NCBI GenBank assembly: GCA_014189685.1
Contig: DVAB01000029.1
Coordinates: 1 to 38,616 of the forward strand
Source: Candidatus Naiadarchaeum limnaeum
Lineage (GTDB): Archaea; Undinarchaeota; Undinarchaeia; Undinarchaeales; Naiadarchaeaceae
Direction of reading: 5' to 3'
Length of the DNA stretch: 38,616 nt
A program made the translations under genes and the position numbers. Numbering within the stretch: position 1 is the first letter of the stretch; each line of letters starts with the position of its first letter. Below the pieces are notes generated by a model. It worked only from the letters and a program-made list of their open reading frames with translations. It searched no databases and was not told the origin of the DNA. This document shows positions 408 through 36,250 of the stretch, piece by piece.

Positions 408-441
408 AAGCTTTGCTACCCTCCTCACTACGTTCGGAGGT
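408..441 (+). promoter_or_regulatory. Palindromic leader with SD-masking hairpin before sodN
   Basis: In the 48-base gap before sodN, CCTCC (420-424) can pair with GGAGG (436-440) across an 11-base loop. The second arm is the Shine-Dalgarno site GGAGGT, 7 bases before the ATG at 448. Just upstream is a decayed version of the GAAGCTTTGCT palindrome found elsewhere in the window. The same arrangement precedes rrp4 (36210-36250). Regulation of sodN translation by this hairpin is inference. Confidence 0.6.
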
Positions 442-447
442 AAAGAA

Positions 448-963
448 ATGAAAATAATTGAAAAAATAAAAAAACTGTTTGAGCCAAAAATTGCTTACGC
501 CCACTGTGATATACCATGCGGAATTTATGATCCACATTTAGCCCAAGTTGCAGCGCACACTGTTGTCAGGATGGGTATGCTGATTGATGAACTAACTGCA
601 AAGATGAATGCCAACCCAAACCCATCTGTAGAAGACAGGCGGGATTTTGTGCACAAACTTTCACGATACACAGAAATAAAAGAACACCATGCAGAAATTG
701 CTAAGCACGAAGTGCGAATACTTTGGGGCGACTATTTCAAGCCAGAGCACGTTCAGAAATATTCGGAGCTGCACGATTTAGTATGGAAGGTAATGAAGGC
801 TGGCTCAAAAGCAAAGCAGGAAGCCAATTTAAAGACCGCAGAGGAGCTGCTCGAGAGTGTTGAAAAAATTGCAGAGATTTTTTGGAAAACCAAAAACATT
901 GAGCCTGTAAAGAGAAAATCGTTCTACATAACAGAGAGGACTCTAGTATATCCAAAATTGTAA
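448..963 (+). CDS. sodN: Nickel superoxide dismutase precursor (SodN)
   Basis: The protein has 171 residues. Residues 19-25 read HCDIPCG, followed by IYDP, which is the nickel-hook signature of Ni-SOD (HCxxPCGxYDP). In known Ni-SODs a propeptide is removed so that the new N-terminal His and two Cys bind nickel. Here an 18-residue basic propeptide ends in AYA directly before His19, a signal-peptidase-like cut site, leaving a mature chain of about 153 residues. The rest is helical and charged, as expected for the four-helix bundle that forms hexamers. The enzyme dismutates superoxide to oxygen and peroxide. Start ATG 448 is set by GGAGGT at 436-441. sodX follows after one base, and a peroxiredoxin precedes. 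Confidence 0.93.
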   Translation: MKIIEKIKKLFEPKIAYAHCDIPCGIYDPHLAQVAAHTVVRMGMLIDELTAKMNANPNPSVEDRRDFVHKLSRYTEIKEHHAEIAKHEVRILWGDYFKPEHVQKYSELHDLVWKVMKAGSKAKQEANLKTAEELLESVEKIAEIFWKTKNIEPVKRKSFYITERTLVYPKL

Positions 964-964
964 G

Positions 965-1279
965 ATGACTGGACTTTTTAAGATTGAGGGGCACAGTATG
1001 GAGCCAGCTATTAAAGCTGGGCAATATTTTTTAGTCCTGAATTTTACGGGGCCGAAAGTGAACGATATTATTATCGTTAAACATCAGAAAAAAAGCATAT
1101 TTTTAGTTAAACGAGTGAAAGCTGTTTTGAAAGAAGGGAAATATTTAGTTGAAGGTGACAATCCAGGGCATAGCGAAGATAGTAGAAAATTTGGGGCAAT
1201 AAAAGAGGAACAAATTGTTGGAAAACTAAGTTTTTGTTTTTGGCCGCTGCAGAAATTTGGATTTGTGAAAAGGAGGTGA
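965..1279 (+). CDS. sodX: SodX-like S26 peptidase for Ni-SOD maturation
   Basis: This 104-residue protein belongs to the signal peptidase I (S26) family. It has the serine motif GHSMEPAI (Ser11), a lysine region LVKRVKAV, and the later GDNPGHSEDSR box. It lacks an obvious N-terminal membrane anchor, and a short soluble form is typical of the SodX proteases encoded beside sodN. It should cut the SodN propeptide before His19 so that nickel can bind. It starts one base after the sodN stop, so the two are almost certainly cotranscribed and translationally coupled. Its last codons contain the SD of the following micro-ORF. The name rests on family plus context. Confidence 0.88.
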   Translation: MTGLFKIEGHSMEPAIKAGQYFLVLNFTGPKVNDIIIVKHQKKSIFLVKRVKAVLKEGKYLVEGDNPGHSEDSRKFGAIKEEQIVGKLSFCFWPLQKFGFVKRR

Positions 1280-1284
1280 TAAAG

Positions 1285-1329
1285 ATGTGTACAATGTGCG
1301 CACGACACAAAAAAAAGAAAGGCAAATAG
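1285..1329 (+). CDS. 14-residue CxxC basic micro-ORF after sodX
   Basis: ATG at 1285 opens MCTMCARHKKKKGK and ends at TAG 1327-1329. Four bases upstream lies AGGAGGTGAT (1271-1280), a ten-base match to the archaeal 16S rRNA 3' end and among the strongest SD sites in the window. It overlaps the last codons of sodX. The peptide has a CxxC pair, a nearby His and a lysine-rich tail, so it could bind metal or nucleic acid. I do not recognise a family. The alternative is that the SD is a chance result of the KRR-stop codons of sodX and the ORF is not real. Confidence 0.45.
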   Translation: MCTMCARHKKKKGK

Positions 1330-1333
1330 CAAA

Positions 1334-2017
1334 TTAAGAGTATTCGTTCAAAATAAGAACCTCTCCTTTTACTGCTTTCTTTAGTTTTTCTTCAGCAGCA
1401 TGATATTGCTCTTTCAGCAGAGCGCGATAGTGAATTGGAACAGTAATTTTTGGTCGAATGTGATTTGAAGCTTCCGCAGCTTCCATTACATCCATTGTAA
1501 AAGTTCCACCGATTGGCAAAAATGCAACATCCAAATCTGTTAATTGTTTCATTTCATCAGTAAAATCCGTATCTCCTGCATGATAAAATGTCTGATTATT
1601 TATTGTAAAAATATATCCAATCCAATTGTTTTCGCGAGGGTGATAGACAAGCCTTTCAGGATGAATGTTATAAGCTGGAACTGCACGAATTTTTATGCCT
1701 TCCAAATTTTTGTAATCCCCTGGTTTTAAAATTTCCAAATTTTCGTGTGAAAAATCCTCGCATCCCTGAACTGCAAAAATTTTTGTATCATCTTTTACAA
1801 CTTTTTGCAAGTCTTTCGTGCTCCAGTGGTCGTTATGCGCGTGAGTAATAAAAACAAAATCAGCTTTTTTGTTGCCAAAATCATGCTTTAAATTAAAAGG
1901 ATCAATGAAAAATATCCGCTCGCCTGTATCTGGCTGAAAGAAAAACGTGGCGTGGCCCATCCAATTAAAGGTTTTCCTAAGCGTCTCTTTTAGAGATTCA
2001 ATTTCGCGGCTTACCAT
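1334..2017 (-). CDS. UlaG-type metallo-beta-lactamase-fold hydrolase
   Basis: This 227-residue protein belongs to the UlaG/UPF0173 branch of metallo-beta-lactamase enzymes. It shows WMGHATFFF near the start, IDPF at 38-41, the metal motif HAHNDH at 59-64, a third ligand region FYHAGDTDFTDE, and a late PIHY. Family members hydrolyse phosphoesters, lactones or N-acyl lipids with two metals; the substrate here cannot be predicted. The start ATG (2015-2017) is well supported by GGAGGT three bases upstream on the minus strand. It is transcribed away from the half-SWIB gene from a shared AT-rich region with a TATTTAAAT box. Confidence 0.85.
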   Translation of the reverse strand: MVSREIESLKETLRKTFNWMGHATFFFQPDTGERIFFIDPFNLKHDFGNKKADFVFITHAHNDHWSTKDLQKVVKDDTKIFAVQGCEDFSHENLEILKPGDYKNLEGIKIRAVPAYNIHPERLVYHPRENNWIGYIFTINNQTFYHAGDTDFTDEMKQLTDLDVAFLPIGGTFTMDVMEAAEASNHIRPKITVPIHYRALLKEQYHAAEEKLKKAVKGEVLILNEYS

Positions 2018-2046
2018 CTTACCTCCATTCTAGAGATGGAGATAAG

Positions 2047-2055
2047 TATTTAAAT
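2047..2055. promoter_or_regulatory. Divergent TATA box (UlaG-like gene / half-SWIB gene)
   Basis: TATTTAAAT is nearly self-complementary and lies about 30-40 bases from both divergent starts (2017 and 2095). Each gene also has a GGAGGT SD, so both probably have short leaders. Confidence 0.5.
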
Positions 2056-2094
2056 CATTTATTCATATGCAAAATAAATTATACGGAGGTTAGA

Positions 2095-2385
2095 ATGGCA
2101 AAGAAAGGAAAAGCTTTTGGCGGAATGATGATAAAGCCAGACGCAGTGCTTGGAAAAGTTATAGGTAGCGCAAAACAAGCTCCATCAAAAATGACAAAAA
2201 ATCTTTGGGGCTATTTTAAAAGGAGAAAACTTTTAAAGAAAACAGCTACAGGGCCATTTGGTGGATTGAAAGTTAAGCCAGACGCAATGTTGGGAAAAGT
2301 TACTGGCAACGCAATGATACCGCCAACGCAGGTGTTCAAGAAAGTTTGGGCCTACATAAAGAGAAAGAAATTAACTGCAAAATAA
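2095..2385 (+). CDS. Tandem half-SWIB repeat protein
   Basis: The 96-residue basic protein is two copies of one 42-residue unit, residues 8-49 and 55-96, which align without gaps at 22 of 42 positions. Each unit resembles the first half of a SWIB/MDM2 domain: a KPDAxLGKVxG helix start, then Pro and a helix ending in WxYxKRxKL, like the KKLWDYIK helix of SWIB proteins. The usual second half of SWIB is absent from both. Full SWIB domains (about 75 residues) are protein-interaction modules linked to chromatin in eukaryotes and Chlamydia. Here two identical halves could fold against each other, which is inference. SD GGAGGT at 2085-2090 fixes the start. The high Lys/Arg content allows nucleic-acid contact. 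Confidence 0.72.
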   Translation: MAKKGKAFGGMMIKPDAVLGKVIGSAKQAPSKMTKNLWGYFKRRKLLKKTATGPFGGLKVKPDAMLGKVTGNAMIPPTQVFKKVWAYIKRKKLTAK

Positions 2386-2441
2386 AATTTCTCTCGGAAA
2401 AATTTTTGAAAGTGAATCAGAGTTTGCTAGAAAGAAATTTC

Positions 2442-3389
2442 TTAATTTACTTTATTAGTTGCCACGCCTTTTAGAAAGTTTTCTATATTGGCGACAAAAA
2501 TTTCTTGCTTCGCCCTAGTTGCTTCTTTTGTTAAATAAGCGCCTGGCGGATAAATTATGCAGTTTTTATGTTTTGAAAGTTTTTTAAGATCATCAGCGGT
2601 CATTTCATCAGAGTGGTCAAGAATAAAAGTAATGTCCCAGCGGCCGAGTCTCTTTTCTAACGCATTTATATCGATTAATTCCATCGGGGCAGTGTTTATT
2701 ACAATCGCGCCGCTTTTTAATTTTTGAATTCTTTCTCTGTTTAAAAATTTTTCAGTATCTTTTGTAAGAGCGAAATGTAATGAGAGGAAATCGCACTTTG
2801 TAATTAATACGTCTGTATTTTCATATTTTATTCCTTTTTTCTCAAGTTCACTTTTCTTGTTTCGCGACCAATACCGTACATCTGCGCCAAAAGCAAGGGC
2901 GAGTTCCGCGACTCTGCTCCCAATTCGGCCGAGGCCAAGGATACCAAACACTTTACCTTTAATTTCAGCGGCACCAAACCCAAATTCAGAATAATTTCCA
3001 GCGCGAGCTTGAGATTTTCCTTTTTCTAAATCGCGCAAATGTTCTAAAAGTATTGCAAAAACAAATTCGGCGACTCCTTCTGTACTATATCTAGGGATAT
3101 TTGTTACAATTATTCCTTTTGTCTTTGCATGTACAGTATCAATTCTTCCATAGCCTGTGCCGAACATTCCAATATATTTTAAATGGGGTGCAGCATCAAT
3201 TTCTTCTCTGCCAAATTTTGTCCCTAAAAATAGGAGTGCACAATCGGAATCTGCGAGTTGTTTCTTAATATCAGAGCTATCTTTTGGAACATAAACTTTT
3301 TTTTCAGATATAGCGTCAATTCGTTTCCAAAAAAAGGGCTCTAATTTAGATTCTTCTATACCAACTATCAGAACTTTTTTAAATTTCAT
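2442..3389 (-). CDS. D-2-hydroxyacid dehydrogenase homologue lacking catalytic Arg and His
   Basis: The 315-residue length, the fold and the NAD-binding motif GLGRIG (152-157) place this in the D-isomer-specific 2-hydroxyacid dehydrogenase family (SerA/LdhA-like). The segment LKSGAIVINTAPMELID aligns with the usual INTARG segment, so the substrate-binding Arg is Pro235. The usual TPH is YPP at 280-282, so the general acid-base His is Pro282. The Glu motif (LDxxExEP) is also degraded (LDHSDEMT). The cofactor half looks intact. It may be a non-catalytic NAD-binding protein or use different chemistry. Its 5' end lies 3 bases from the rtcB stop, so it is probably cotranscribed with rtcB. Confidence 0.85.
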   Translation of the reverse strand: MKFKKVLIVGIEESKLEPFFWKRIDAISEKKVYVPKDSSDIKKQLADSDCALLFLGTKFGREEIDAAPHLKYIGMFGTGYGRIDTVHAKTKGIIVTNIPRYSTEGVAEFVFAILLEHLRDLEKGKSQARAGNYSEFGFGAAEIKGKVFGILGLGRIGSRVAELALAFGADVRYWSRNKKSELEKKGIKYENTDVLITKCDFLSLHFALTKDTEKFLNRERIQKLKSGAIVINTAPMELIDINALEKRLGRWDITFILDHSDEMTADDLKKLSKHKNCIIYPPGAYLTKEATRAKQEIFVANIENFLKGVATNKVN

Positions 3390-3392
3390 TAT

Positions 3393-4850
3393 TTACCCTT
3401 TCACATTCCCAATTGGAATAAATCGCACAACTTTCCTAGAAATGTCAGCTCTGTGAACAGCATCTATTACATCATCTATATCTTTGTAGGCTGGCCCAGC
3501 CTCCTCTGCCAATCCTGAAAAGGTAACTGTGCGCACATAAATCCCTCTCTGTTCCATTTCTTTTTGTAACTGCTCGCCGCGGTACATATGCTTTGCTTTT
3601 GTGCGGGACATTGTGCGACCGCTTCCATGACAAGTTGAACCAAAAGTTTCATTCATTGCTCCTTCTGTGCCGACTAAAAGATATGATCCTGTTTCCATCG
3701 AGCCTCCAATTATTATTGGCTGGCCGACTTTTCTGTATTTCTCAATAATTTCTTCTCTTCCAGGGCCGAATGCGCGAGTCGCGCCTTTTCTATGGACTAA
3801 AACTTCTTTTGTTTCTCCATCAATTTTGTGCTTTTCAATTTTTGCAGTATTGTGCGCAACATCATAAACCATGCGCAATCCTAATTTTTCTGCATCCTGT
3901 TTTAAAACTTTTGAAAAAACTTCTCTTATGCGATGCAAAATAACTTGCCTGTTTACAAAGCTCATATTTATTGCGCCTTTCATTGCAGCAAAATAATCTT
4001 GGCCTTCGGGAGAATTAAAAGGCGCGCATGCCAATTCGCGGTCAAGAATTTTAATTCCATACTTGCGCTCCATTACGGATAGAAATTTTTCAAGATAATC
4101 AGATGCAACTTGATGACCAAATCCGCGCGAGCCGCAATGAAACATGATTACAATTTGATTTGGAATTGTAATGCCGAATGTTTCTGCAATTTTTTTGTCA
4201 AAAACAAATTCAGGCTTTGCAACTTGGATTTCTAAATAGTGATTTCCGCTTCCAAGCGTTCCAATTTGAGAAAGCCCGCGCTTGATTGCCTTATCAGAAA
4301 TTTTTGAAACATCCACGCCCTCAATTCTTCCGTTTTCTTCTGTAAATTCTAAGTCCTCTTTCCACCCATAGCCTTTCTCAACGCACCACTCAGAGCCATC
4401 TGTTGTAATTTTTTTAAATTCAGCAGCGTTTAATTTTACAAATCCGCTTGCCCCGACTCCGGCCGGAACTTTGTGAAAGAGTTCGTCAACCAATTGTTTT
4501 AAATGAGGTTTTATATCATCATAAGTTAAATTTGTTGTAACTAAACGCATTCCGCAATTAATGTCAAAGCCAATTCCACCAGGGGAAATAACTCCATCAT
4601 TGTTTATGTCCATTGCAGCAACCCCGCCAATTGGAAATCCATAGCCTGAATGGCCATCTGGCATACAATAAGCGTATTTTAAAATTCCAGGCAGAGTTGC
4701 AACATTTGTAATCTGTTCATAAACTTGCAAATCCATTTCGCGCGCAAGCTTTTCAGTAGCGTAAATTCTTGCTGGGACGCGCATTCCTGGCTTAAAAGTT
4801 TTTGGAATTTCCCAGACAGTATCTGAAATTTTTTTCAGTTGCTCAAACAT
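3393..4850 (-). CDS. rtcB: RNA-splicing ligase RtcB
   Basis: RtcB joins 2',3'-cyclic phosphate and 5'-OH RNA ends in archaeal tRNA splicing, using GTP and manganese. The 485 residues contain all expected ligands: Asp96 and Cys99 in FDINCG, His204 in SGNHYLE, His238 in MFHCGSRG, His333 in DVAHN, and the guanylylated His408 in CHGSGR. Spacing matches the Pyrococcus enzyme closely and there is no intein. The activator archease is encoded just upstream on the same strand, separated by a broken gene on the opposite strand. A minus-strand TATA-like CTTTTTTATAG lies about 30 bases before the start. Confidence 0.97.
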   Translation of the reverse strand: MFEQLKKISDTVWEIPKTFKPGMRVPARIYATEKLAREMDLQVYEQITNVATLPGILKYAYCMPDGHSGYGFPIGGVAAMDINNDGVISPGGIGFDINCGMRLVTTNLTYDDIKPHLKQLVDELFHKVPAGVGASGFVKLNAAEFKKITTDGSEWCVEKGYGWKEDLEFTEENGRIEGVDVSKISDKAIKRGLSQIGTLGSGNHYLEIQVAKPEFVFDKKIAETFGITIPNQIVIMFHCGSRGFGHQVASDYLEKFLSVMERKYGIKILDRELACAPFNSPEGQDYFAAMKGAINMSFVNRQVILHRIREVFSKVLKQDAEKLGLRMVYDVAHNTAKIEKHKIDGETKEVLVHRKGATRAFGPGREEIIEKYRKVGQPIIIGGSMETGSYLLVGTEGAMNETFGSTCHGSGRTMSRTKAKHMYRGEQLQKEMEQRGIYVRTVTFSGLAEEAGPAYKDIDDVIDAVHRADISRKVVRFIPIGNVKG

Positions 4851-4919
4851 TTTTTCTCGCCTTAACTTAAAGGAGCTGCTATAAAAAAGTTCTTATTTAG
4901 AGTGAGCTACTATTAAACT

Positions 4920-5218
4920 ATGGAACCGATTGAGAGAGTGTTTGAAACAAAGCGTTATGAAGAATCTGGTGTCAGAAAGGGCACAAGAAGTATACCGGCA
5001 CACGAAGCTGGACTATCCATTTCAGAAGCAAAAAAGGAGAATTGCAGCTCGTGGTAGGTAGAGGGGAAGTTTTTATAAAAGGAACATTGAAAAAAGGCAT
5101 TTTTAAAAAAGAATACTATGAAAAGTCATTTGGAAGTGTAGACGATTTGGGAACTATAGAATTGGCACAGGAAAAAATAATTGAGCTTTTGAGAACTAAA
5201 TATCCAAAACAAAAATAG
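4920..5218 (+). pseudogene. Unknown small gene with a -1 frameshift at a slippery A-run
   Basis: ATG 4920 opens 45 codons that end at TAG 5055-5057. A second frame, open through 5033-5218, continues with GELQLVVGRGEVFIKG and ends in a Lys-rich helix. The two frames join by a -1 shift at AAAAAAG (5030-5036), read in the zero frame as A AAA AAG, the same heptamer used in E. coli dnaX. Joined, the product is about 98 residues of unknown family. It may be a disrupted gene, a homopolymer sequencing error, programmed frameshifting, or two cistrons (GGAG at 5036-5039 precedes TTG and GTG codons). The 3' end overlaps archease by 23 bases on the opposite strand. A TATA-like TTATTTAG lies about 25 bases before the ATG. 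Confidence 0.55.
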
Positions 5219-5654
5219 CGCGCCAGCCTTTTCTAACTTTTTTTTCAACATCGTCAAAAGTAAACTGCTCAACTTTTAGCATGTGCCTTGTTATTGCTTT
5301 TACATCTGTGCGCATTTTTTTCGGATCTTGAGTGATTTTTTCTCCATATGCAGTTGCTTCCAAAACATATTTTTTCCCTTTTTGTTGAATATTTACATCA
5401 AATTTTCCAAACCATAAATATTCAGCATCCTTCAAATAAATTAATTGTTCGAGCCATTTAAACAACAAATCATCTAATTTTTCACCCTCAACTTTTATTT
5501 CGCGGGTTTCAGAGCTTCCAACAGCAAAAATATCCACCATTTCTGAAAAAGTTGCCAGTGCTGCATCTCTGAAAATTTCGTTTAAATCTTTTCCAATTAC
5601 TTCAAAAGCTGCGTCTGCAATTGAGATATCTTCTAAAGGGCGGTAGGGGGTCAT
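5196..5654 (-). CDS. Archease, RtcB cofactor
   Basis: The 152-residue protein matches archease, which speeds guanylylation of RtcB and broadens its substrates. The N-terminal segment YRPLEDISIADAAFEVIG corresponds to the YxxLEHTADxxxxxYG start of the family, with Asp9 where many members have His. The C-terminal segment VKAITRHML matches the conserved DxKAxTYHxL region, and an acidic metal-binding C-terminus (FVLDI) is present. It is encoded upstream of rtcB on the same strand. Its leader carries the palindromic element at 5672-5705, and the start is only weakly defined because no clear SD is seen. Confidence 0.9.
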   Translation of the reverse strand: MTPYRPLEDISIADAAFEVIGKDLNEIFRDAALATFSEMVDIFAVGSSETREIKVEGEKLDDLLFKWLEQLIYLKDAEYLWFGKFDVNIQQKGKKYVLEATAYGEKITQDPKKMRTDVKAITRHMLKVEQFTFDDVEKKVRKGWRAIFVLDI

Positions 5655-5705
5655 TTTCGAGCGTTAGCGAGAAAATGCGAGGAAGCTTTGCTTCCAAAGC
5701 ATTTT
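5652..5705 (-). repeat. Palindromic leader element before archease
   Basis: An outer stem AAAATGC/GCATTTT (5672-5678 with 5699-5705) encloses an inner stem GGAAGC-TTT-GCTTCC (5681-5695). A competing stem CATTTTC/GAAAATG (5652-5658 with 5671-5677) reuses part of the outer arm, so two exclusive folds are possible. Nineteen bases of the core (GCGAGGAAGCTTTGCTTCC) recur exactly at 10226-10244. On the minus strand the element ends at the archease ATG through a TCGCTAACGCTCG spacer. Confidence 0.7.
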
Positions 5706-5756
5706 AGCAAAAATAGAGAGATTTGCTTAATTAATAGCTTTTTCTAAGCGCAAAGC

Positions 5757-5764
5757 TTTAAATA
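5757..5764 (+). promoter_or_regulatory. TATA box for the MarC gene
   Basis: TTTAAATA, preceded by a purine/GC context (GCAAAGC), sits 26-33 bases before the GTG/ATG start pair of the MarC-like gene. This suggests a leaderless or very short-leader transcript. Confidence 0.5.
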
Positions 5765-5795
5765 GAATAAATACTTACTCGCAGCCTAAGTGGGA

Positions 5796-6434: not shown

Positions 6435-6544
6435 CAGCAGTCGTAGTAATATCCGCAATTTAAACATCTAGAACGTTTTTTGCTTCCTGCAATGGATTCC
6501 ATTTTTGAGCTGCATAGGGGGCAGTCTGTGTATTCCTCTGCCAT
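6431..6544 (-). CDS. 37-residue zinc-ribbon microprotein
   Basis: On the minus strand ATG 6544-6542 opens 37 codons ending at TAA 6433-6431. The peptide begins MAEEYTDCPLCSSKMES and ends RCLNCGYYYDCC, giving two CxxC knuckles 16 residues apart plus a terminal Cys pair: a complete small zinc ribbon. The upstream TATTTAAAT (6565-6574) is about 22-25 bases before the ATG and is shared with the divergent arvA gene, so the transcript is probably leaderless. The 3' end overlaps the MarC gene by 4 bases. No function can be assigned, but it could be a nucleic-acid or protein-binding adaptor. Confidence 0.78.
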   Translation of the reverse strand: MAEEYTDCPLCSSKMESIAGSKKRSRCLNCGYYYDCC

Positions 6545-6564
6545 GCGTGATTTTTGAGTGGTTA

Positions 6565-6574
6565 AACATTTAAA
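6565..6574. promoter_or_regulatory. Divergent TATA box (zinc-ribbon gene / arvA)
   Basis: ATTTAAATAT is near-palindromic and placed about 22-25 bases from the minus-strand zinc-ribbon ATG and about 35-44 bases from the arvA ATG. Confidence 0.5.
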
Positions 6575-6608
6575 TATTAGCTATTATTATGCAAAATCGG
6601 GAGAGATA

Positions 6609-7442: not shown

Positions 7443-7443
7443 A

Positions 7444-7863: not shown

Positions 7864-7876
7864 TTGAGGAATTCCT

Positions 7877-8251
7877 ATGCATCAATGCCTTAAATGCAAA
7901 AAAATGTATTCGAATGAGGAAGTTCCAATTGTAGAGGGCTGCGAATGCGGCTCAAGGCTTTTTTTGTTCATTAGAAATCCAGCTGATATTATACAGGCGC
8001 AGATTCATAAAAAAGAATTGGAGCAAAAAATTGCGGATATTGATAAGGAAAGAGAACAATCTGCCCGGCCGCGCAAGGCAAAAGGCAAATTTGGAGTAGA
8101 AACTATAAAAGTTCATGATATCGGAGTCTATTCAATTCATTTAGAAGCATTAATGAAAGGCGCGCCAATAATTGTTTTGTCAAAATCCGGCTCGTACATT
8201 ATAAGTTTTCCTTCGCTTTTTGGGGAGAAGATAGAAGTGCCGTTGAAATAG
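7877..8251 (+). CDS. arvC: Zinc-ribbon protein (DUF2072, OapC/ArvC family)
   Basis: The 124-residue protein opens with a zinc ribbon, CLKCKKMYSNEEVPIVEGCECG (four cysteines as two CxxC-like pairs), then LFLFIRNP. A charged coiled stretch follows (about residues 45-75), then a C-terminal domain IKVHDIGVYSIHLEALMKGAPIIVLSKSGSYIISFPSLF typical of DUF2072. It is third in the arvABC-like cluster, 13 bases after arvB. The ribbon is probably structural. I infer it works with ArvA and ArvB; direct evidence in this organism would be needed. Confidence 0.82.
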   Translation: MHQCLKCKKMYSNEEVPIVEGCECGSRLFLFIRNPADIIQAQIHKKELEQKIADIDKEREQSARPRKAKGKFGVETIKVHDIGVYSIHLEALMKGAPIIVLSKSGSYIISFPSLFGEKIEVPLK

Positions 8252-8278
8252 TAAACGGTAAGCGGTAAACAGTAAAAG
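8251..8278 (+). repeat. Four tandem 7-base repeats
   Basis: GTAAACG, GTAAGCG, GTAAACA and GTAAAAG follow each other directly after the arvC stop codon (its last base is the first G). The unit is seven bases, so it is not a coding repeat. A similar 7-base periodicity (AGCTTGT, AGCTAGT, AGCTTGT) appears in the large palindrome at 37850-37926. Confidence 0.75.
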
Positions 8279-8330
8279 ATGCCCATACAAATTTCGTTGG
8301 CTTCCAAACTAATTTTAGCCATACATTATT

Positions 8331-9999: not shown

Positions 10000-10206
10000 T
10001 CATTTCTCGATATGATAGTGAAGTTTTACAGGCCCAATCTGTCTTACTCCGATTTTTCCAGCCCCTATCAGCTGGCCTAATAAATAAACCGACTCATATC
10101 GGCTTATCTTAAACTCCCGCGCAACATCTTGTATCGAGACTCCCTGAGGACTTTTCTTTATGAAATCCTCCACTTCCTTTACTGTTGGGATGGAGTCTGC
10201 GGGCAT
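10000..10206 (-). CDS. Small winged-helix DNA-binding protein
   Basis: The preferred form (ATG 10206) has 68 residues: VKEVEDFIKKSPQGVSIQDVAREFKISRYESVYLLGQL is a helix-turn-helix, and IGVRQIGPVKLHYHIE is a winged beta-hairpin. A longer reading frame starts at ATG 10251, but its extra 15 residues are encoded by the palindromic element at 10224-10251, so I treat them as leader. It lies just upstream of, and probably in one operon with, the MscS-like gene, so it may regulate it or itself. A strong minus-strand TATA box lies at 10281-10294. Confidence 0.75.
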   Translation of the reverse strand: MPADSIPTVKEVEDFIKKSPQGVSIQDVAREFKISRYESVYLLGQLIGAGKIGVRQIGPVKLHYHIEK

Positions 10207-10223
10207 CTTGAGTGTAACGAAAG

Positions 10224-10251
10224 ATGCGAGGAAGCTTTGCTTCCGACGCAT
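10224..10251 (-). repeat. Palindromic leader element before the winged-helix gene
   Basis: An outer stem ATGCG/CGCAT (10224-10228 with 10247-10251) encloses GGAAGC-TTT-GCTTCC (10230-10244). The core is identical to the archease leader element and has the same orientation relative to the downstream gene. It contains an in-frame ATG, creating an alternative longer start. Confidence 0.72.
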
Positions 10252-25961: not shown

Positions 25962-26792
25962 TTAAAACTTCCGAGGATAAATTACTTTCCCTTTTTTCTC
26001 AGATTCCTCTTTTACGTCAGTCGCTTCAAAATCCTCTATTTTATAAGTATATTCGTCATCGCGGCTTATCTTTCCCTTTGCTTTTAAAAATTCGCGGGTT
26101 AAAAGCCAAAACACAAGAGCCAAAGATTTTTTGCCTTTGTTATTCACAGGCAAAATCAAGTCAATGTTTTGAGTCATGTTATTTGTATCGCAAAGAGCAA
26201 CTATTGGGATATTCATTTTCAGAGCTTCTAAAATTGCTTGCCTATCTACTCCAGGGTCAACAACAAAAATTAAATCAGGCTCAATATAATTTGGAAAGTT
26301 TGGATTTGTAAGCGAGCCTGGGATAAATCTCTTAACAACTGCCCTGCATCCAGTTAATTCGCAGAATTTTTGAACCGGCTTTTTTCCAGTATCGCGGCCG
26401 CTTATTATCATTACTTTTTCAGGACTAAACTGTGTAAGAAAATCCGCAACCACCTTTATTCTCTTGTCAATTGTTGCAACATCCAAAACTGCCAATCCGT
26501 CCGAGCGGACTTTAAAAATAAATTTTTTCATCCCCGCTATTTTTCTCTGCATTCCAATATGAACTCCGCTAGCTAAATAGAGATCAACTGGGACTAAAGT
26601 TTCAGAAACTTTCTTTGAAACCTTTTTTACTTTTTCGCGCTCAACCTCTTCCTTGAATTCTTTTACAGCCTCAGCTGTGGCAAGTCCTGCTTGCGCAGCA
26701 ATCTGCACTGCTCTTTCCTTTAATTCCTCTGACCGCAAACCTTGTTTGCGGGTAGCGAATCCTTCGGTTTCGCCTGATTTTGTTTTTTCCAT
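25962..26792 (-). CDS. rps2: Small ribosomal subunit protein S2 with palindrome-encoded N-terminus
   Basis: The 276-residue frame contains a full archaeal S2: DLYLASGVHIGMQRKIAGM, FIPGSLTNPNFPNYIEPDLIFVVDPGVDRQAI and CDTNNMTQNIDLILPVNNKGKKSLALVFWLL. An N-terminal extension of about 70 residues precedes it. Residues 7-18 (GETEGFATRKQG) and the following LRS are encoded by two perfect inverted repeats (26733-26773 in genome coordinates), like palindromic elements inserted into genes. After that the extension is helical and charged. No clear alternative start is seen, so the ATG at 26792 is accepted. It sits 36 bases after eno. Confidence 0.94.
   Translation of the reverse strand: MEKTKSGETEGFATRKQGLRSEELKERAVQIAAQAGLATAEAVKEFKEEVEREKVKKVSKKVSETLVPVDLYLASGVHIGMQRKIAGMKKFIFKVRSDGLAVLDVATIDKRIKVVADFLTQFSPEKVMIISGRDTGKKPVQKFCELTGCRAVVKRFIPGSLTNPNFPNYIEPDLIFVVDPGVDRQAILEALKMNIPIVALCDTNNMTQNIDLILPVNNKGKKSLALVFWLLTREFLKAKGKISRDDEYTYKIEDFEATDVKEESEKKGKVIYPRKF
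26733..26773 (-). repeat. Palindromic element inside the coding start of rps2
   Basis: CCGCAAAC-CTT-GTTTGCGG (26733-26751) is a perfect 8-bp stem with a 3-base loop. GCGAA/TTCGC (26755-26759 with 26769-26773) is a second stem, with an inner CC-TTC-GG. The reading frame passes through both. The element matches the triloop palindromes in front of other genes in the window. Confidence 0.7.
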
Positions 26793-28110: not shown

Positions 28111-28171
28111 AACAAACATGATTTAAAAATAAGTTCTGAGAATTTTACTGATTCATATGCGCGAAGTAGGT

Positions 28172-28260
28172 GAAGCAAATCATGCTTCGCTTATTTCAAA
28201 CCGGAACTGCGTTCCGGTTTGCGCACGAAAGCAAAGCTTTCGTGCTGTCGCTCACGAGGT
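28172..28260 (+). promoter_or_regulatory. Three-hairpin structured leader of psmB
   Basis: GAAGCA/TGCTTC (28172-28188), AAACCGGAAC-TGC-GTTCCGGTTT (28198-28220, 10-bp stem) and GCACGAAAGC-AAA-GCTTTCGTGC (28223-28245, 10-bp stem) follow each other. Then TCGCTCAC and the SD GAGGT (28256-28260) lead to ATG 28269. Two of the loops are 3 bases. The same frame is open through the hairpins, so an extended translation from 28170 is possible but unlikely. Confidence 0.7.
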
Positions 28261-28268
28261 TCGCGAAA

Positions 28269-28925
28269 ATGGCTGACGACAAAACTTTAAGTCATGAGCA
28301 AGTTGAGAAGTATTTAAAGGGTACAACTACTGTTGGGATTGTTTGCAAGGATGGAGTTGTGCTGGCTTCAGACAGCAGGGCAACTATGGGGTATTTGATT
28401 TCTGACAAGGAAGCTCAAAAGATTTTCCAGATTGATGATAAAGTTGCAATTACAACCGCAGGGCTTGTTGGAGATAATCAAAGCCTAGTAAGAATTATGC
28501 GCGCCCAGCTTGCGCTTGCAAGAATGGAGGAAAAGCCACTGACAATAAAAGCAACATCAACTCTTCTCGCTAATATTCTTCATTCTAGACGCTATTACCC
28601 ATTTCTTGCCCAGCTGATTGTTGGGGGTTTTGATACAGAAGGGCATATTTTTGAGCTCGATCCGGTAGGTGGAATGAGTGGAAAGAAAGTAAGCTCAACA
28701 GGCTCAGGAAGTCCTGTGGCATATGGAGCAATGGAAACTGCATACAGAGAAAATATGACTGTTCAGGATGGGATTGAGCTTGTAACACGTGCAATTTATT
28801 CTGCGCGAGAGCGTAATGCAGGAACCGGAAACAAAATTGAAGTTGTAACAATCACAGATAAGGGCTTTAAGAAATTAACTGAAGACCAAGTTAAGAAAAC
28901 TATTGAAACTCTGAAGGCCCAATAA
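28269..28925 (+). CDS. psmB: Proteasome beta subunit
   Basis: This is the catalytic 20S proteasome subunit, 218 residues from ATG 28269. An 18-residue propeptide (MADDKTLSHEQVEKYLKG) ends before the catalytic Thr19 in TTTVGIVCKDGVVLASDSRAT, with Asp and Lys of the Thr-protease triad in the usual DSR and later KI segments. SSTGSGSPVAYGAMETAYRENM is typical. The longer frame from 28170 would add 33 residues encoded by palindromic repeats; I reject it, because SD GAGGT precedes 28269 and beta propeptides are short. The alpha subunit is at 37014-37745. Confidence 0.95.
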   Translation: MADDKTLSHEQVEKYLKGTTTVGIVCKDGVVLASDSRATMGYLISDKEAQKIFQIDDKVAITTAGLVGDNQSLVRIMRAQLALARMEEKPLTIKATSTLLANILHSRRYYPFLAQLIVGGFDTEGHIFELDPVGGMSGKKVSSTGSGSPVAYGAMETAYRENMTVQDGIELVTRAIYSARERNAGTGNKIEVVTITDKGFKKLTEDQVKKTIETLKAQ

Positions 28926-30906: not shown

Positions 30907-30951
30907 ATAAAGTTAACATAATCTTTGTACACACTATCTGTTTCTAAAAAT

Positions 30952-31350
30952 TTATAATTCTGCCGGAGTAGACATTTGCGCACTGGTTTGAACTACTGGA
31001 TGTTCGCCTCTCCAAATTGTAACATCAGGAGGTGTTATCAATATAACGTCCTCCTTTAATCCAGCCATATCGCCGCCAATTGCCGCTGCTGTTCGCTGAA
31101 TTCTCTTCAAAGCGCGCTTTAACTCCATTTTCTCCTGAAGTAAGCGAGGCTTTATTTTTAGAATTACTATGTTGTTCCTATCGCGCAGATAATTCAAAAC
31201 AACATCTGTGTCTGTGTACTCATTGAAGTTCACAACTCGAATAAAACTTTTGCCATCGGCTGCTTCCTTGCTCCACTCAACTTCCATGTAGCGAGGCTCC
31301 TGAGATGCAGAAAGTCTTGCTGATTTGAACAGGTTGTCCAAGATACCCAT
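30952..31350 (-). CDS. sepF: Cell division protein SepF (archaeal)
   Basis: SepF anchors FtsZ to the membrane. The 132 residues begin with an amphipathic MGILDNLFKSARL helix as a membrane anchor, then a flexible linker, then the SepF core FIRVVNFNEYTDTDVVLNYLRDRNNIVILKI and IQRTAAAIGGDMAGLKEDVILITPPDVTIW. Length is typical for archaea, and the GGDM segment is diagnostic. It has its own minus-strand TATA (TTTATAAATA, 31441-31432) with a leader of about 70 bases and a G-rich SD before the ATG. Confidence 0.94.
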   Translation of the reverse strand: MGILDNLFKSARLSASQEPRYMEVEWSKEAADGKSFIRVVNFNEYTDTDVVLNYLRDRNNIVILKIKPRLLQEKMELKRALKRIQRTAAAIGGDMAGLKEDVILITPPDVTIWRGEHPVVQTSAQMSTPAEL

Positions 31351-31457
31351 TTTTTGCCCCCCTAAAATTTTTTTACAACGCTTGTAAATTGCTGATAACA
31401 GTAAGCGTGCACTTTGTACCTGTGCGATGCCTATTTATAAATGTTTTGCCCCAAAAT

Positions 31458-31739
31458 TTACTCCGCAGAAAGAGATTCGACAAGCGTAATTGTGCTAAAC
31501 AATATTGTGCGGGTACGCATGTCTAAATTATTATCAGAAACCATTTCCTCCAAAACCTGAAGTGCTATATTTTTTCTCTTCTCGATTGAGCCATTCCCAT
31601 TTGAAAGCGCGTTTGTTATCTTCAGAGCCCCATTTCTAATTATTTGAGTTGCGTTTTGATCATAAATCAGCTCGCTGAGAGAATTTATTATTTCATTTAC
31701 CTTAGGATTTATTAGATTAACTTTAATTTTTGCTGCCAT
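31458..31739 (-). CDS. UPF0147 family protein
   Basis: The 93-residue helical protein matches UPF0147, an archaeal-only family of small all-helical proteins: VNEIINSLSELIYDQNATQIIRNGALKITNAL and RKNIALQVLEEMVSDNNLDMRTRTILFSTITLVESLSAE are characteristic. Its function is not established. It is 27 bases downstream of the DHH gene and ends the superoperon before the sepF promoter. Confidence 0.9.
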   Translation of the reverse strand: MAAKIKVNLINPKVNEIINSLSELIYDQNATQIIRNGALKITNALSNGNGSIEKRKNIALQVLEEMVSDNNLDMRTRTILFSTITLVESLSAE

Positions 31740-31766
31740 ATTGTCTCAAAAACCAGATTTTCTAGT

Positions 31767-32750
31767 CTATGGGGTATTTAATTTAGTTTTTGTATACTCA
31801 AAAATATACTTCAAAGCCTCATCCGCTCTATTAACAAGCTTTCCATTCGCGCCCGCAGCTGTTGGGTGGCCGCTTCCTGTTCCCTGAATTATTTTTGCGA
31901 TCCCAGGAATTACATCTTTCCCCAAATCTATCTTTGTTTTCTCATAAAAATTTTGATTAGAGCGCAATGAAATTCTTATTTCATCTTCTTTTTCAGCTGC
32001 AACTCCAACTAAATCTGCGCCTGCTCTGATTAAAGAGCGCGCTGCGCTTGCCTCAAAAGCAGCTATTTTGCTGGTTGCAACTAGAAATTCCCCAATTTTT
32101 TCAAATTTTACGCGCTGGGAAGCCTTTAATCTTGCGATTCGTTCAGAAGTATCTAAAGGCGTTTCAAGAGTTGCAAGAACCCATCGATAATCAATATTAA
32201 ATTTTTTCATTAATTCAGAAAGAATTTCAAAATTTTTCAAGCGGGCATATTGCAAATGCGCAGTTTCTGCAACAGTCCCAAGCAAAATTGCTTTTGCAAT
32301 TTTTTCGTCGATTTGAACTTTTAACTCTTTTAACAAATCATAAACAAGCTCAACTGTGCTAGAAGCGTTTTCATCGATAAATTTAAAATCTGCTTTTAAT
32401 GAGTAATCGTGAATTGTGTGATGGTCAATTATCATTTTCTTTGCAGAAGAGGAAAAAACTTTTCCAGCAAAGCTCGATAATTGCCCTTCAGTGGACATAT
32501 CCAACATAACAATTAAATCAACATTCAAATCAGGGTCAATTTCAACATCTGCCCCAATTGAATCTAAAATTTTTCGTGAAATTTTACTTGCACTTTCAAT
32601 AACTCCGCCGCGAACTTTAAAACCCAATTGTTTTAATCCAAGAGAAAGTGCAACAATAGAACATACAGAATCTGGGTCTGCATTTTTATGGCCTAAAAGC
32701 AAAATAGATTTTCCTTTAAACTGCTTTAGAGTTTCTGCAATATTTTTCAT
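31767..32750 (-). CDS. DHH-DHHA1 family phosphoesterase
   Basis: The 327 residues contain LLLGHKNADPDSVCSI at the N-terminus (DHH motif I variant), LIVMLDMS, the DHH motif IIDHHTIHDYS, and the DHHA1 segment GTGSGHPTAAGANGKL near the C-terminus. The family hydrolyses short oligoribonucleotides or phosphonucleotides (NrnA-like), which suits an exosome gene cluster, since it could finish RNA decay. It lies directly downstream of prefoldin beta. Confidence 0.88.
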   Translation of the reverse strand: MKNIAETLKQFKGKSILLLGHKNADPDSVCSIVALSLGLKQLGFKVRGGVIESASKISRKILDSIGADVEIDPDLNVDLIVMLDMSTEGQLSSFAGKVFSSSAKKMIIDHHTIHDYSLKADFKFIDENASSTVELVYDLLKELKVQIDEKIAKAILLGTVAETAHLQYARLKNFEILSELMKKFNIDYRWVLATLETPLDTSERIARLKASQRVKFEKIGEFLVATSKIAAFEASAARSLIRAGADLVGVAAEKEDEIRISLRSNQNFYEKTKIDLGKDVIPGIAKIIQGTGSGHPTAAGANGKLVNRADEALKYIFEYTKTKLNTP

Positions 32751-32779
32751 AAGAGAGGTGAGAGAATTAATATAAAAAA

Positions 32780-33148
32780 TTATCCGCCCTCTGAAACATT
32801 TCCGCCGCCAAGTCCTGCGAGGCCTTTTTGCAGTTCCTCTTGCAATGTTTTAACTTTCTCCATTACTTTTTTCTCTTGCTTTTCAATTGTTTTCAGTCTT
32901 AATTCTAAGGTTTCAACCTTTTCCTTTAATTCAGAGTGAACTGTATTTTTATCAGATTTAATCAAAATTTGTCCAACAACCTTGTGCACCTCTGTATTGC
33001 CTGCTTTCTCCAGCTCATCTAATGCGTTTTGAGTCTCTTTCATTTGTAATTCAATCTGATATTTCTGGCTTAAAAGAACGCGGGCTTGCTGCTGAGCTTC
33101 CTGAAAATCCTGAATCTTCTGCTGCATTTCCTGACTTAGTTGCGCCAT
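32780..33148 (-). CDS. pfdB: Prefoldin beta subunit
   Basis: The 122 residues form two long coiled-coil helices around a short beta hairpin: EMQQKIQDFQEAQQQARVLLSQKYQIELQMKETQNAL, then VHKVVGQILIKSDKNTV, then the second helix. This is the prefoldin beta pattern. With prefoldin alpha (not in the window) it captures unfolded proteins for the thermosome. A short Gly-rich end (GLGGGNVSEGG) follows. It lies 2 bases after Pcc1. Confidence 0.94.
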   Translation of the reverse strand: MAQLSQEMQQKIQDFQEAQQQARVLLSQKYQIELQMKETQNALDELEKAGNTEVHKVVGQILIKSDKNTVHSELKEKVETLELRLKTIEKQEKKVMEKVKTLQEELQKGLAGLGGGNVSEGG

Positions 33149-33150
33149 AT

Positions 33151-33375
33151 TTATTCGATATCCCCCACTTCTTTTACCGTATTAATTAATCGCAAATACG
33201 AATTAATTGCTGCGCGCGCAGCGGTCAAGTCTTTAGCATCAATTTGTATATATAGCTCTCCTTTTTTTGGAGTGACTTTAACGCTAAATCGCTCAGTATT
33301 TTCTAAATCAGGCTTTAAGGCCTCATAAGCCTCTTTTGGATTTTCTAACTTTATGCTAAACTCAGCTTTAATCAT
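33151..33375 (-). CDS. pcc1: KEOPS complex subunit Pcc1
   Basis: The 74-residue protein has the Pcc1 pattern: KAEFSIKLENPKEAYEALKPDLEN, FSVKVTPKKGELYIQIDAKDLTAARAAINSYLRLINTVKEV. Pcc1 is the dimerising subunit of KEOPS, which makes t6A in tRNA. The Asp-Leu-Thr-Ala-Ala-Arg helix is conserved. It is 4 bases downstream of rpoP and just before prefoldin beta, the usual archaeal neighbourhood. Confidence 0.9.
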   Translation of the reverse strand: MIKAEFSIKLENPKEAYEALKPDLENTERFSVKVTPKKGELYIQIDAKDLTAARAAINSYLRLINTVKEVGDIE

Positions 33376-33379
33376 AGAA

Positions 33380-33523
33380 TTAGATTGCTTTTACTTTTCT
33401 TGCAACAGGCTGCCTTACTTTTAAGAAAATTTTGTGATCACATTTTGGACACTGAATAATTCCTGAAGGGCCTTTTGGCTCCTTTGTAATTTCCCCGCAG
33501 TTAATACATTTGTACTCGACCAT
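33380..33523 (-). CDS. rpoP: RNA polymerase subunit P (Rpo12)
   Basis: The 47-residue frame reads MVEYKCINCGEITKEP, then IIQCPKCDHKIFLKVRQPVARKVKAI on the minus strand (ATG 33523-33521, stop 33382-33380). The CxxC-x15-CxxC zinc ribbon and the basic RQPVARKVKA tail are diagnostic for archaeal RpoP/Rpb12. It is easily missed because it is short. It lies between L37Ae (4 bases upstream) and Pcc1 (4 bases downstream), the conserved order. Confidence 0.95.
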   Translation of the reverse strand: MVEYKCINCGEITKEPKGPSGIIQCPKCDHKIFLKVRQPVARKVKAI

Positions 33524-33527
33524 TTTT

Positions 33528-33836
33528 TTACTCCTCTTTTACAACCTTTTGTTCCTGCTCTTTCTTAAATTTCTCAACGCTAACTATTTTTCCCTCAGCC
33601 TTTATTGCTTCAACAGCCGGGAACGGAATATAAGCTCCCCCTGCAAACTTAACTCCGCATTTTAAGCATTGCCAAATAGCTGTTGAAACGCGTTTAACTT
33701 TAAAAGCCTTACAATTTGGGCATTCATACTTTTTAGTCCGGTATTGCTCTTCAATCTCTTTAACTCGGAGCTTAATTTTTCTTCCATAGCGTGCTCCGAA
33801 TCTGCCGGTTATTCCGAGTTTTTTCAATTTGCCCAT
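33528..33836 (-). CDS. rpl37ae: Large ribosomal subunit protein L37Ae
   Basis: The 102-residue protein has the L37Ae core GITGRFGARYGRKIKLRVKEIE, then the zinc ribbon KYECPNCKAFKVKRVSTAIWQCLKCGVKFAGGAY. Length slightly exceeds the usual archaeal form because of a Lys/Glu-rich C-terminal tail. It follows Rrp42 by 25 bases and precedes rpoP by 4. Confidence 0.96.
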   Translation of the reverse strand: MGKLKKLGITGRFGARYGRKIKLRVKEIEEQYRTKKYECPNCKAFKVKRVSTAIWQCLKCGVKFAGGAYIPFPAVEAIKAEGKIVSVEKFKKEQEQKVVKEE

Positions 33837-33861
33837 TAGTAGAGCGAATATGTTAGCACAG

Positions 33862-34614
33862 CTATTTAAGTAATTTTCTAAGCTCTTTTCCCTTTCTCAA
33901 TGCAATTCTAACGCATTCCATAACCTCTTCTGGCGTCCAAAATCCTGCTGCTGCTTTCTGCATTGCAACTATATTTCCAAGCTCATCTGTTGTAACCGTG
34001 AGGCGAGCTTCCATTACTCTTTCTTCTTCTAAACTTGGATCAAGCAAAATTTTGTTGGCTATTTTTACAAAAGTGTTTGCAATTGGTTTCTTAGAGACTG
34101 GCAATTTTTCTCCATCTTTCATTGTTGCATTCCATAGAGCTACAATCGCCCCAAGAGCAGCTGCATCCATGAAATTTCCATCGTGGTCTAACACATAAGT
34201 GTCTACAAAAACGGATTTTACTTTTTCACCAGGAGTTATACAGAGCTTTTTCAAGTCAATTGTTTTTGCCTCTCTAATCCCCCTGTCAACAACCCTTGCC
34301 AATTCAATTGCATTCTCATCAGGCGGGCCTGGCTGAAAAGTCGGGGATGCCATTGGAACTAATTCTGCAGTTGTTGTAAGAGTTCCCTCATCCGGACTGT
34401 CTGGATATGGAATTGCTTCCCCTAATTTTATTCCGCATGCAACCATTGTATTTCCAATTTTTACCCTTGCAGAGCCCTCTGCGCGCTTGTAAACTCCAAT
34501 ATCAAGCTCAATTTTTCTGTATTCATCAAAATTTCTTCCGTCCAAACGCTTTCCAGATTCAATTAATTTATAAATTGAATCGCGTTCTATTTGCGGAACA
34601 ATTTGTACAGTCAT
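33862..34614 (-). CDS. rrp42: Exosome subunit Rrp42
   Basis: The 250-residue RNase PH-like protein opens with LIESGKRLDGRNFDEYRKIELDIGVYKRAEGSARVKIGNTMVACGIKLG. Rrp42 forms the hexameric ring with Rrp41 but does not itself carry the phosphorolytic site; it helps bind RNA. Its ATG is 2 bases after the end of rrp41, so translation is coupled. Confidence 0.95.
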   Translation of the reverse strand: MTVQIVPQIERDSIYKLIESGKRLDGRNFDEYRKIELDIGVYKRAEGSARVKIGNTMVACGIKLGEAIPYPDSPDEGTLTTTAELVPMASPTFQPGPPDENAIELARVVDRGIREAKTIDLKKLCITPGEKVKSVFVDTYVLDHDGNFMDAAALGAIVALWNATMKDGEKLPVSKKPIANTFVKIANKILLDPSLEEERVMEARLTVTTDELGNIVAMQKAAAGFWTPEEVMECVRIALRKGKELRKLLK

Positions 34615-34616
34615 TT

Positions 34617-35456
34617 TTATTCACTTCCTTTTTGATTGTTGTTTCCTTCAGTAGCTGAGGTTGCAGCAACATATTTTTTCTTGAGCGCTGCCTTTTGCAA
34701 TTCATATACTTTTTTGCATCCTTCAACCGCGTACTTTAATGCCTTTTCAAATTCATCCTCTGTAAGCTGTCCATCCATCTGCAGCAGAGTTATCTTGCTG
34801 TTCTTTGGAGAAAGTGCAACAGGGACATCAGCTTCTCCGGTGTTGTCCTCAATTCCATTCATATCAAGAACAACCTCACCATCAATTTTGCCAGCTGAGC
34901 AAGCTGCTACTAAGTCAGACATCTCAATTCCTGCATCTGCCAAAGCAACACTTGCGGCAGTTATTCCAGCAACTCTTGTTCCTGCATCAGCCTGCACAAT
35001 CTCAATAAAAACATCTATGCCTGTTTTTGGATAGTGCTTTAGAAAAACAACAGGCTCAAGAGCTTCGCGAGTTACTTTTGAAATTTCTATCGAACGCCTA
35101 TCCGGGCCTGGTCTTTTTCTGTCTCCAACAGAAAAAGGTATCATGTCATACTTTACCCTGAGAACAGCCTGCTGCGGCTCTGTCAAGTGCCTTGGATGAA
35201 GTTCTCGCGGACCATAAACAGCTGCGAGCGCATGTGTATCTCCATACTCTACATAAGCAGAGCCATCTGCCCTCTCAAGAACACCGGCTTCAATTTTTAT
35301 CGGTCTCAGTTCATTAAAGCCGCGGCCATCCAAACGCTTTCCTTTTACAATTAGTTTAACTGGCTCTTCAGAAATTACATCTTTCTCTTTTGTCTCAACC
35401 AATTCTTCTAATCCTATTTCTTCTTCTTTCTCTTTCGTTTTTGCTTTCTTTTTCAT
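34617..35456 (-). CDS. rrp41: Exosome subunit Rrp41 (catalytic RNase PH)
   Basis: The 279-residue chain (from ATG 35456) has [20 protein letters not shown], then [46 protein letters not shown], and the catalytic Asp region [22 protein letters not shown]. It degrades RNA 3'-5' with phosphate. An N-terminal Lys/Glu-rich extension of about 35 residues precedes the RNase PH core. ATG 35456 is chosen because GAGGTGA is 5 bases upstream; a GTG at 35465 is weaker. It sits just downstream of rrp4. Confidence 0.96.
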
Positions 35457-35468
35457 AAAATTCACCTC

Positions 35469-36206
35469 TTAAACATTAAAATCAGCCCCAGATTCCTCAA
35501 TTAAAGGAATGTCTGAAACTTTTTTCTGGGTTTTCTCCTCCAAAAATGTCTTAACACGATCAGTCAAGCCATGCATATGAGCCTCACGCTCAATAAGTCG
35601 GATTGCTTCAATTGCAATGTTTGGGTTTTCTCCGCTAATCCAAATTCTTCCATTCTGCCCGACTGTTATTCTACAATTAGTCATGTACTTGAGCAATTGC
35701 ACCATTGTCCCCTTTTTTCCAATTACGCGGGGAACTTTGGTTGGGCTTATTGATATCAAGCGGCCTTCTCTTAATTTGTAAAGTCCTTTGTCCCTCATTG
35801 TAAGTCCAACTTGCATTGACTGCGAAACATTCAAAACTTTTGCAACAATAACGTCTCCTATATTATAAATTTTTGACAAGTCTTCTTGATTTATATCTAT
35901 AAAGCGGTCAGTTGCATTTGCAATTCCAAGCACTCCCTGATATGGAGAATTTATATCAACACTCCAGCTTGAAAATGATATGTCCTCCACAATTCCAATT
36001 ACCAAATCGCGCGGAGCAGGAACATATTTCCCGCTGAGCGGAATAATTTTTATAAACTGTTCTTTTGTATCAACTAGGCCGAGAATGTTTGCATAAATAT
36101 TTTCGCCCTCTTTGTAAGTTCCTTCCCCTAGCAAATAATCTCCGCTTGCTAACAAATCTCCTGGGACTACCAAGTCCCTGCCTTTAACAAATAATTCCAT
36201 TTTCAT
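35469..36206 (-). CDS. rrp4: Exosome cap subunit Rrp4
   Basis: The 245 residues hold an N-terminal domain with VVPGDLLASGDYLLGEGTY, an S1 domain (about 60-140) and a KH domain containing KVPRVIGKKGTMVQLLKYMTNCRITVGQNGRIWISG. Rrp4 caps the exosome ring and guides RNA in. The leader carries a palindromic element with an SD-masking hairpin (36210-36250); the start ATG 36206 has GGAGGTGA a few bases upstream, with a second ATG two codons later as alternative. Confidence 0.95.
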   Translation of the reverse strand: MKMELFVKGRDLVVPGDLLASGDYLLGEGTYKEGENIYANILGLVDTKEQFIKIIPLSGKYVPAPRDLVIGIVEDISFSSWSVDINSPYQGVLGIANATDRFIDINQEDLSKIYNIGDVIVAKVLNVSQSMQVGLTMRDKGLYKLREGRLISISPTKVPRVIGKKGTMVQLLKYMTNCRITVGQNGRIWISGENPNIAIEAIRLIEREAHMHGLTDRVKTFLEEKTQKKVSDIPLIEESGADFNV

Positions 36207-36209
36207 TCA

Positions 36210-36250
36210 CCTCCGAGTGAAACGAGGAGGGTTGCAAAACGAAGTTTTGC
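36210..36250 (-). promoter_or_regulatory. Palindromic leader with SD-masking hairpin before rrp4
   Basis: In mRNA orientation GCAAAAC-TTC-GTTTTGC (36250-36234) is a 7-bp triloop hairpin. It is followed by CCTCC (36230-36226), an 11-base loop, and GGAGG (36214-36210), which is the SD of rrp4. The sodN leader has the same CCTCCTC...TCGGAGGT order and loop size, although the loop bases differ. Confidence 0.68.

Follow-up and report, generated by a model that had tools for sequence, protein, structure and literature searches.

The 38,616-nucleotide (nt) window analysed here, contig DVAB01000029.1 of the archaeon Candidatus Naiadarchaeum limnaeum (C13 of a 984-kb, 98% complete genome), carries short perfect inverted repeats directly before the start codons of several genes, raising the question of what these palindromes are and why they lie where translation begins. 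The initial annotation proposed one mobile palindrome that targets or supplies translation starts. The palindromes turn out to be members of a family of double-hairpin elements, 36-51 nt long and spread over the whole genome, whose two main kinds are termed type A and type B; the family greatly exceeds chance expectation and is almost missing from same-order relatives. The palindrome family is thus real, while the single element of that proposal resolves into at least two distinct ones. These are probably mobile, tRNA-intron-like double-hairpin palindromes that persist where a start codon is recreated, where splicing is possible or where the reading frame is kept.

Double hairpins at start codons

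Type A follows the plan GC-hairpin1-GCATTTTC-hairpin2-GAAAAT, aligned copies reading ATGC-TTC-GGAAGC-AAA-GCTTCC-TC-GCAT-TTT-C-TC-GC-TAAC-GC-TC-G-AAA-ATG. Hairpin 2 has a fixed design of its own, X'-TC-ab-N3/4-b'a'-TC-X, in which a variable stem is followed by a TC/TC internal loop, a stem of 2 base pairs (bp) and a loop of 3-4 nt, and either the start codon (as AAAATG or AAGATG) or the Shine-Dalgarno sequence GGAGG falls in its 3' arm. The common spacer described before the ATG is therefore genuine, although it is itself this second hairpin. The stems covary (GCATTTT/AAAATG, GCATCTT/AAGATG, GCATCTC/GAGATG), and copies found later alter outer and inner stems together, ATAC/GTAT occurring with GGACGC/GCGTCC and AAAACAC/GTGTTTT with GGAATT/AATTCC. 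The covariance model that the annotation had called for, R1, was built from eight start-codon copies. Across the genome it returns some 27 distinct loci of type A or similar at E<=~0.04, and by hand count about 20 end at a gene start. The genes behind them are unrelated, including archease, SodN, proteasome beta, Rrp4 and TBP, assigned through Pfam, and PurD, Rpl5, RNA polymerase and thiolase, identified by reading translations.

Abundance was assessed in 400 kb of the genome, sampled as stretches with genes called, the remainder being covered by whole-genome searches. Within the sample, 12 short-loop palindromes with a stem score of at least 24 were observed against 1.2 in dinucleotide shuffles, and the hairpin-2 module with at least 5 bp occurs 19 times; other dinucleotides placed in that frame give 0-10 occurrences, and 251 kb drawn largely from genomes of the same order contain no copy of the module. 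Strong triloop palindromes reach 42/Mb here versus 4/Mb in that comparison sequence; the sample was drawn from contigs with the GGAAGC core, so its densities are biased upward, while the genome-wide model searches are unbiased. The core GGAAGCAAAGCTTCC is found at 10 places in the genome and the reversed control pattern at none. Shuffles, reversed-pattern control and relatives together rule out a chance origin, upholding the expectation that such palindromes would exceed chance. Five genomes of the same order served for comparison, none of the relatives sharing genus or family. Beyond these, exact patterns of the type A core had no match in named-genome or viral contigs, two further exact patterns none in viral contigs, and blastn against plasmids returned no match to the element; no Rfam family other than tRNA matched at the gathering score or at E<=0.5 over elements. 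A hairpin-2 module, CATTGCC-TC-GC-TAAC-GC-TC-GGCAATG, also lies between genes in an unrelated archaeon, G087.

The position of type A relative to promoters indicates how its copies came to lie at starts. Ordinary genes of this genome have a TATA-like box at a median of 36 nt before the start, with a peak at 25-30, and in element genes with a recognised box it lies 21-47 nt before the left ATG of the element, 45-97 nt further from the start in use. The distance to the left ATG thus matches the ordinary one, placing that ATG at the former gene start. Most copies have native AT on their left (AAAAT, TAAAT, AAGAT, CTTAT, CCCAT). Start placement has two exceptions: C51:17015 is reversed and intergenic, and C7:17499 is decayed with no gene behind its final ATG, which makes the AT of this ATG part of the element. 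An AT-ending element that splits AT^G would rebuild an ATG at both of its ends, the right one in frame, and this would account for the placement at start codons. The left ATG (for example at C7:3411 and window 5702) opens a conserved short open reading frame, MLRKQSFLAFSR*, which stops some 9 nt upstream of the gene ATG, whereas in C46 and at window 10251 it continues in frame into the gene; the short frame may reflect only sequence kinship.

These pairings also invite another explanation, a cis-regulatory leader RNA in which hairpin 2 sequesters either the ATG or the Shine-Dalgarno sequence and hairpin 1 competes with it, the pair being selected as a translation switch. The start codon or Shine-Dalgarno sequence does lie within the hairpin-2 stem in at least 12 genes, the stems covary, and GCAT is able to pair upstream or downstream. 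We nevertheless judge such a switch unlikely, as the target genes are unrelated, the module is missing from same-order relatives, one copy lies reversed between genes (C51:17015), homologous copies occur in tRNAs and within pop5, and type B lacks the G-U pairs that an RNA constraint would allow.

In the window the type A elements range from intact to decayed. The archease copy, a training member of the model (48 nt, 5653-5700, reverse strand, R1 E 8e-20), contains the palindrome GGAAGC-TTT-GCTTCC at 5681-5695, and its final AT forms the first two bases of the ATG at 5654. Another R1 match of 45 nt (10205-10249, reverse strand) lies at the start codon (10206) of a short gene whose winged-helix label is that of the initial annotation, the gene having no Pfam match; its palindrome occupies 10230-10244, and the upstream ATG at 10251 is in frame. 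Before rrp4 (ATG 36206), a type A-like element on the reverse strand (36210-36252) comprises hairpin 1, GCAAAAC-TTC-GTTTTGC (36234-36252 region; forward palindrome GCAAAAC-GAA-GTTTTGC, 36234-36250), and hairpin 2, CCTCC-TC-GT-TTC-AC-TC-GGAGG (36210-36230), which holds the Shine-Dalgarno sequence. The weakest is the type A-like element before sodN (407-440, forward strand, ATG 448), with a decayed hairpin 1 (407-420) and a hairpin 2 (420-440), CCTCC-TC-AC-TAC-GT-TC-GGAGG, that contains the Shine-Dalgarno sequence; a palindrome is present there as reported, although its triloop stem is mismatched and only CCTCC...GGAGG is perfect. The palindromes reported at archease, the winged-helix gene, psmB, rrp4 and rps2 are all in place. 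Two other repeats of the window stand apart, a long imperfect palindrome (CTGGCTTGCAGCTTGTAGC...GCTAGCTACGAGCCAG) at 37848-37926, between psmA and pop5 and unlike types A and B, and short degenerate repeats, TAAACGGTAAGCGGTAAACAGTAAAA, at 8250-8280 downstream of a gene end.

Kinship with tRNA T-loop inserts

Beyond start codons, R1 matches T-loop inserts in the genome's own tRNA-Lys(CTT) and tRNA-Ala(GGC), as well as two places in an unrelated archaeal family (f16), one of them tRNA-Cys(GCA) of genome G017, and a dedicated T-loop search adds a related insert in the own tRNA-Arg(TCG). The Lys, Ala and Cys inserts follow TTCAAAT, and removal of the insert yields a recognisable tRNA in all four cases. 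No second copy of Lys(CTT), Ala(GGC) or Arg(TCG) was seen among 30 tRNA loci (4 not callable, a few loci not examined), and the interrupted genes are therefore probably the working ones.

A further R1 match (E 0.0017) is a copy in the window that the initial annotation, right about a sixth copy inside rps2, had missed as a seventh. It is a 36-nt in-frame insertion after AAT (38002-38037, reverse strand) in the PF01900 gene pop5/rpp14 (37930-38304), where it adds 12 residues exactly at a gap in Pyrococcus Pop5. This insert aligns over its full length with that of tRNA-Lys (35 nt) and with the start element of rpl5 (36 nt), all three lying after AAT. A full-length alignment likewise joins the G017 tRNA-Cys insert and a start-codon element of C7, from GCT to GAAAAT, both reading GC...GAAAAT. 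For the T-loop alignments none of 1000-5000 mononucleotide shuffles scored as well, and for the pop5 insert none of 5000. The alignments place the start-codon copies, the T-loop inserts of tRNAs and the insert in pop5 in one homologous family.

Introns in the T-arm of archaeal tRNAs are known (PMC12397907), as is the transposition of tRNA introns among archaeal tRNAs (Fujishima et al. 2010, via PMC4090602). In those reports (PMC4090602, PMC12397907), archaeal introns with a bulge-helix-bulge (BHB) motif are likewise short inserts in tRNA genes after TTCRAAY with near-identical sequences in different tRNAs, and two inserts here form a strict BHB, with a 4-bp helix and a 3-nt bulge at both junctions (tRNA-Arg, 5/2000 shuffles; G017 tRNA-Cys, 1/2000). 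A splicing endonuclease gene is present in the genome, at C26:9961. Unlike those introns, homologous copies here also lie at protein start codons and within a protein gene, where no BHB forms. None of the eight start-codon and pop5 copies searched has one, even under relaxed criteria, so these copies are expected to remain in the mRNA, and BHB splicing of the mRNA copies is unsupported.

The likeness to tRNA inserts could instead be convergent, both kinds of site needing short hairpins after AAT, and the elements might then be selfish palindromes of the sort found in Rickettsia or of the mitochondrial double-hairpin sort. In-frame insertions and double hairpins are known from those systems, and type B would fit this explanation well. 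It seems to us distinctly improbable, since the elements align over their whole length, termini included, with T-loop inserts from two genomes. As in the palindromes of Rickettsia proteins (PMC10969869), in-frame palindromes add a peptide to unrelated proteins, here PheT, GlmS and Pop5, and are absent from homologues; in contrast to them, the present elements measure 36-51 nt against about 150 bp (a distinction of size, not of sequence comparison), are archaeal, occupy start codons and tRNAs, and include nested double hairpins.

Type B and its nesting in other hairpins

Type B is an exact 51-nt unit composed of C, an 11-bp triloop hairpin, C, a 10-bp triloop hairpin and TG, inserted at T^T without target duplication. 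With five copies as its training set, a covariance model recovers no fewer than 13 others that are full-length or nearly so. Among the copies, eleven pairs have changed on both sides (20 double-changed pair cells) and none on one side, with no G-U pairs; this points, in small numbers, to the arms being copied from each other at the DNA level. In PheT an in-frame type B supplies 17 additional residues, and in GlmS a 45-nt variant supplies 15, each absent from 29/29 homologues.

Other copies are nested in type A (C50, C51, C45), in a type D subtype (psmB, C32), in type E (C17 twice, C1) and in a plain hairpin (C7:88946), and deleting type B from the sequence restores every host hairpin. In the window, the D element of psmB is split on the forward strand into a left part (28159-28196, hairpin GCGAAG...CTTCGC) and a right part that completes the host hairpin at the start codon (28248-28270, ATG 28269). 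Between them, at T^T, lies a 51-nt type B (28197-28247, type B model E 2e-18, training member) with its 11-bp (28197-28221) and 10-bp (28223-28245) triloop hairpins; without this insert the type A-like D element reads ATTTTCGC-TC-AC-GAG-GT-TC-GCGAAAAT(G). The copy within the 5' end of rps2 (25962-26792) is a 45-nt double hairpin of type B2 (26733-26777, forward strand) that lies antisense to the gene, is read in frame, includes the hairpin CCGCAAAC-CTT-GTTTGCGG at 26733-26751 and closely resembles the GlmS insertion.

Type E itself is a larger intergenic repeat (CCTCAGGCAAAAATAAAAG...GCGCCAGCTG or parts of it), whose three copies (C17:52175, C1:645, C17:6349) hold type B at one common internal spot. 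Two degenerate type B copies (C28:1812, C6:3533) share their flanks to the left and right, which would fit duplication of a larger segment. Type B-like matches in G082, G098 and G118 seem to be triloop-hairpin arrays of another kind rather than this element and were set aside; the complete archaeal genome G082 carries arrays of different triloop hairpins between genes.

Two tandem hairpins and the merging of elements are also features of mitochondrial double-hairpin or repetitive hairpin elements and yeast GC clusters (PMC2800124, PMC4478555), and like the Allomyces double-hairpin elements type B has no flanking duplication, a likeness in architecture rather than sequence kinship. The present elements differ in lying on an archaeal chromosome, in their fixed 51-nt architecture and in regenerating start codons.

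Probable movement and survival of the elements

The sequences show that copies are homologous, where the elements begin and end, that they are insertions when set against homologues, that they nest, that their paired bases covary and how they lie relative to promoters; we infer that the elements are still moving, that they move at the DNA level and that their location reflects survival rather than targeting. Type A would insert between AT and G of a start codon, pushing the old ATG upstream while its 3' end supplies a new one in frame, through which the gene would survive. After TTCAAAT in a T-loop it would be tolerated, in some tRNAs as a spliceable BHB intron, and inserted in frame in a protein gene it would be translated. 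Type B is a second element, which would enter T^T, mostly in other hairpins and also in frame in proteins. We are evenly divided on the more specific history in which a tRNA T-loop intron became a genome-wide mobile element, its 3' end carrying most of a start codon, with the second hairpin element parasitising type A; spread through ATG re-creation at gene starts and in-frame riding in proteins, which this history includes, stands at the same even balance. The proposal of a mobile palindrome supplying translation starts is well supported by insertions that are absent from homologues, nested and regenerating the start codon. The targeting of starts has fared less well, as related copies lie in tRNA T-loops, protein genes and other hairpins, and survival of an AT-ending insert explains the bias better.

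Several points weigh against this account. Six type A copies (C3, C45, C32:56, C12 and two in C22) lack a preceding AT, and R1 terminates in ATG, slightly favouring start-codon matches. The own tRNA-Lys and tRNA-Ala inserts fail both strict and relaxed BHB tests, in a search that is insensitive, recovering 1/6 control anticodon introns and missing 5/6. Movement is deduced from sequence. No match to a Y1 transposase (Y1_Tnp, PF01797; IS200/605) was found in this genome or six others, and reverse transcriptase (RVT_1) is absent, other recombinases not being checked; movement driven by IS200/605 or reverse transcriptase was discounted on these absences.

The same result bears on whether the palindromes are non-autonomous repeats, of REP type or derived from IS200/IS605, that a Y1 (RAYT/TnpA) transposase mobilises, an origin that their small hairpins, the precise T^T junctions and the insertion of type B without target duplication might suggest. 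With no such transposase found, and with copies in coding genes and tRNAs as well as intergenic DNA, this is very improbable. REP elements with RAYT transposases (PMC3733652) share the small dispersed palindromes, and differ in their transposase and in being restricted to intergenic DNA.

The preferred reading, mobile tRNA-intron-like elements that persist where they are tolerated, offers a simple reason why inserts survive at start codons, the ATG being rebuilt, and provides an archaeal counterpart, its nested insertions legible at single-base level, to the in-frame palindromic elements of bacteria and the double hairpins of mitochondria. Our searches of the openly accessible literature returned no report of such elements at archaeal start codons. 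How archaeal tRNAs gain introns is an open question, and here T-loop inserts are linked with dispersed copies whose ends are defined. The sequence kinship between start-codon copies and tRNA introns suggests that such introns can disperse across a genome.

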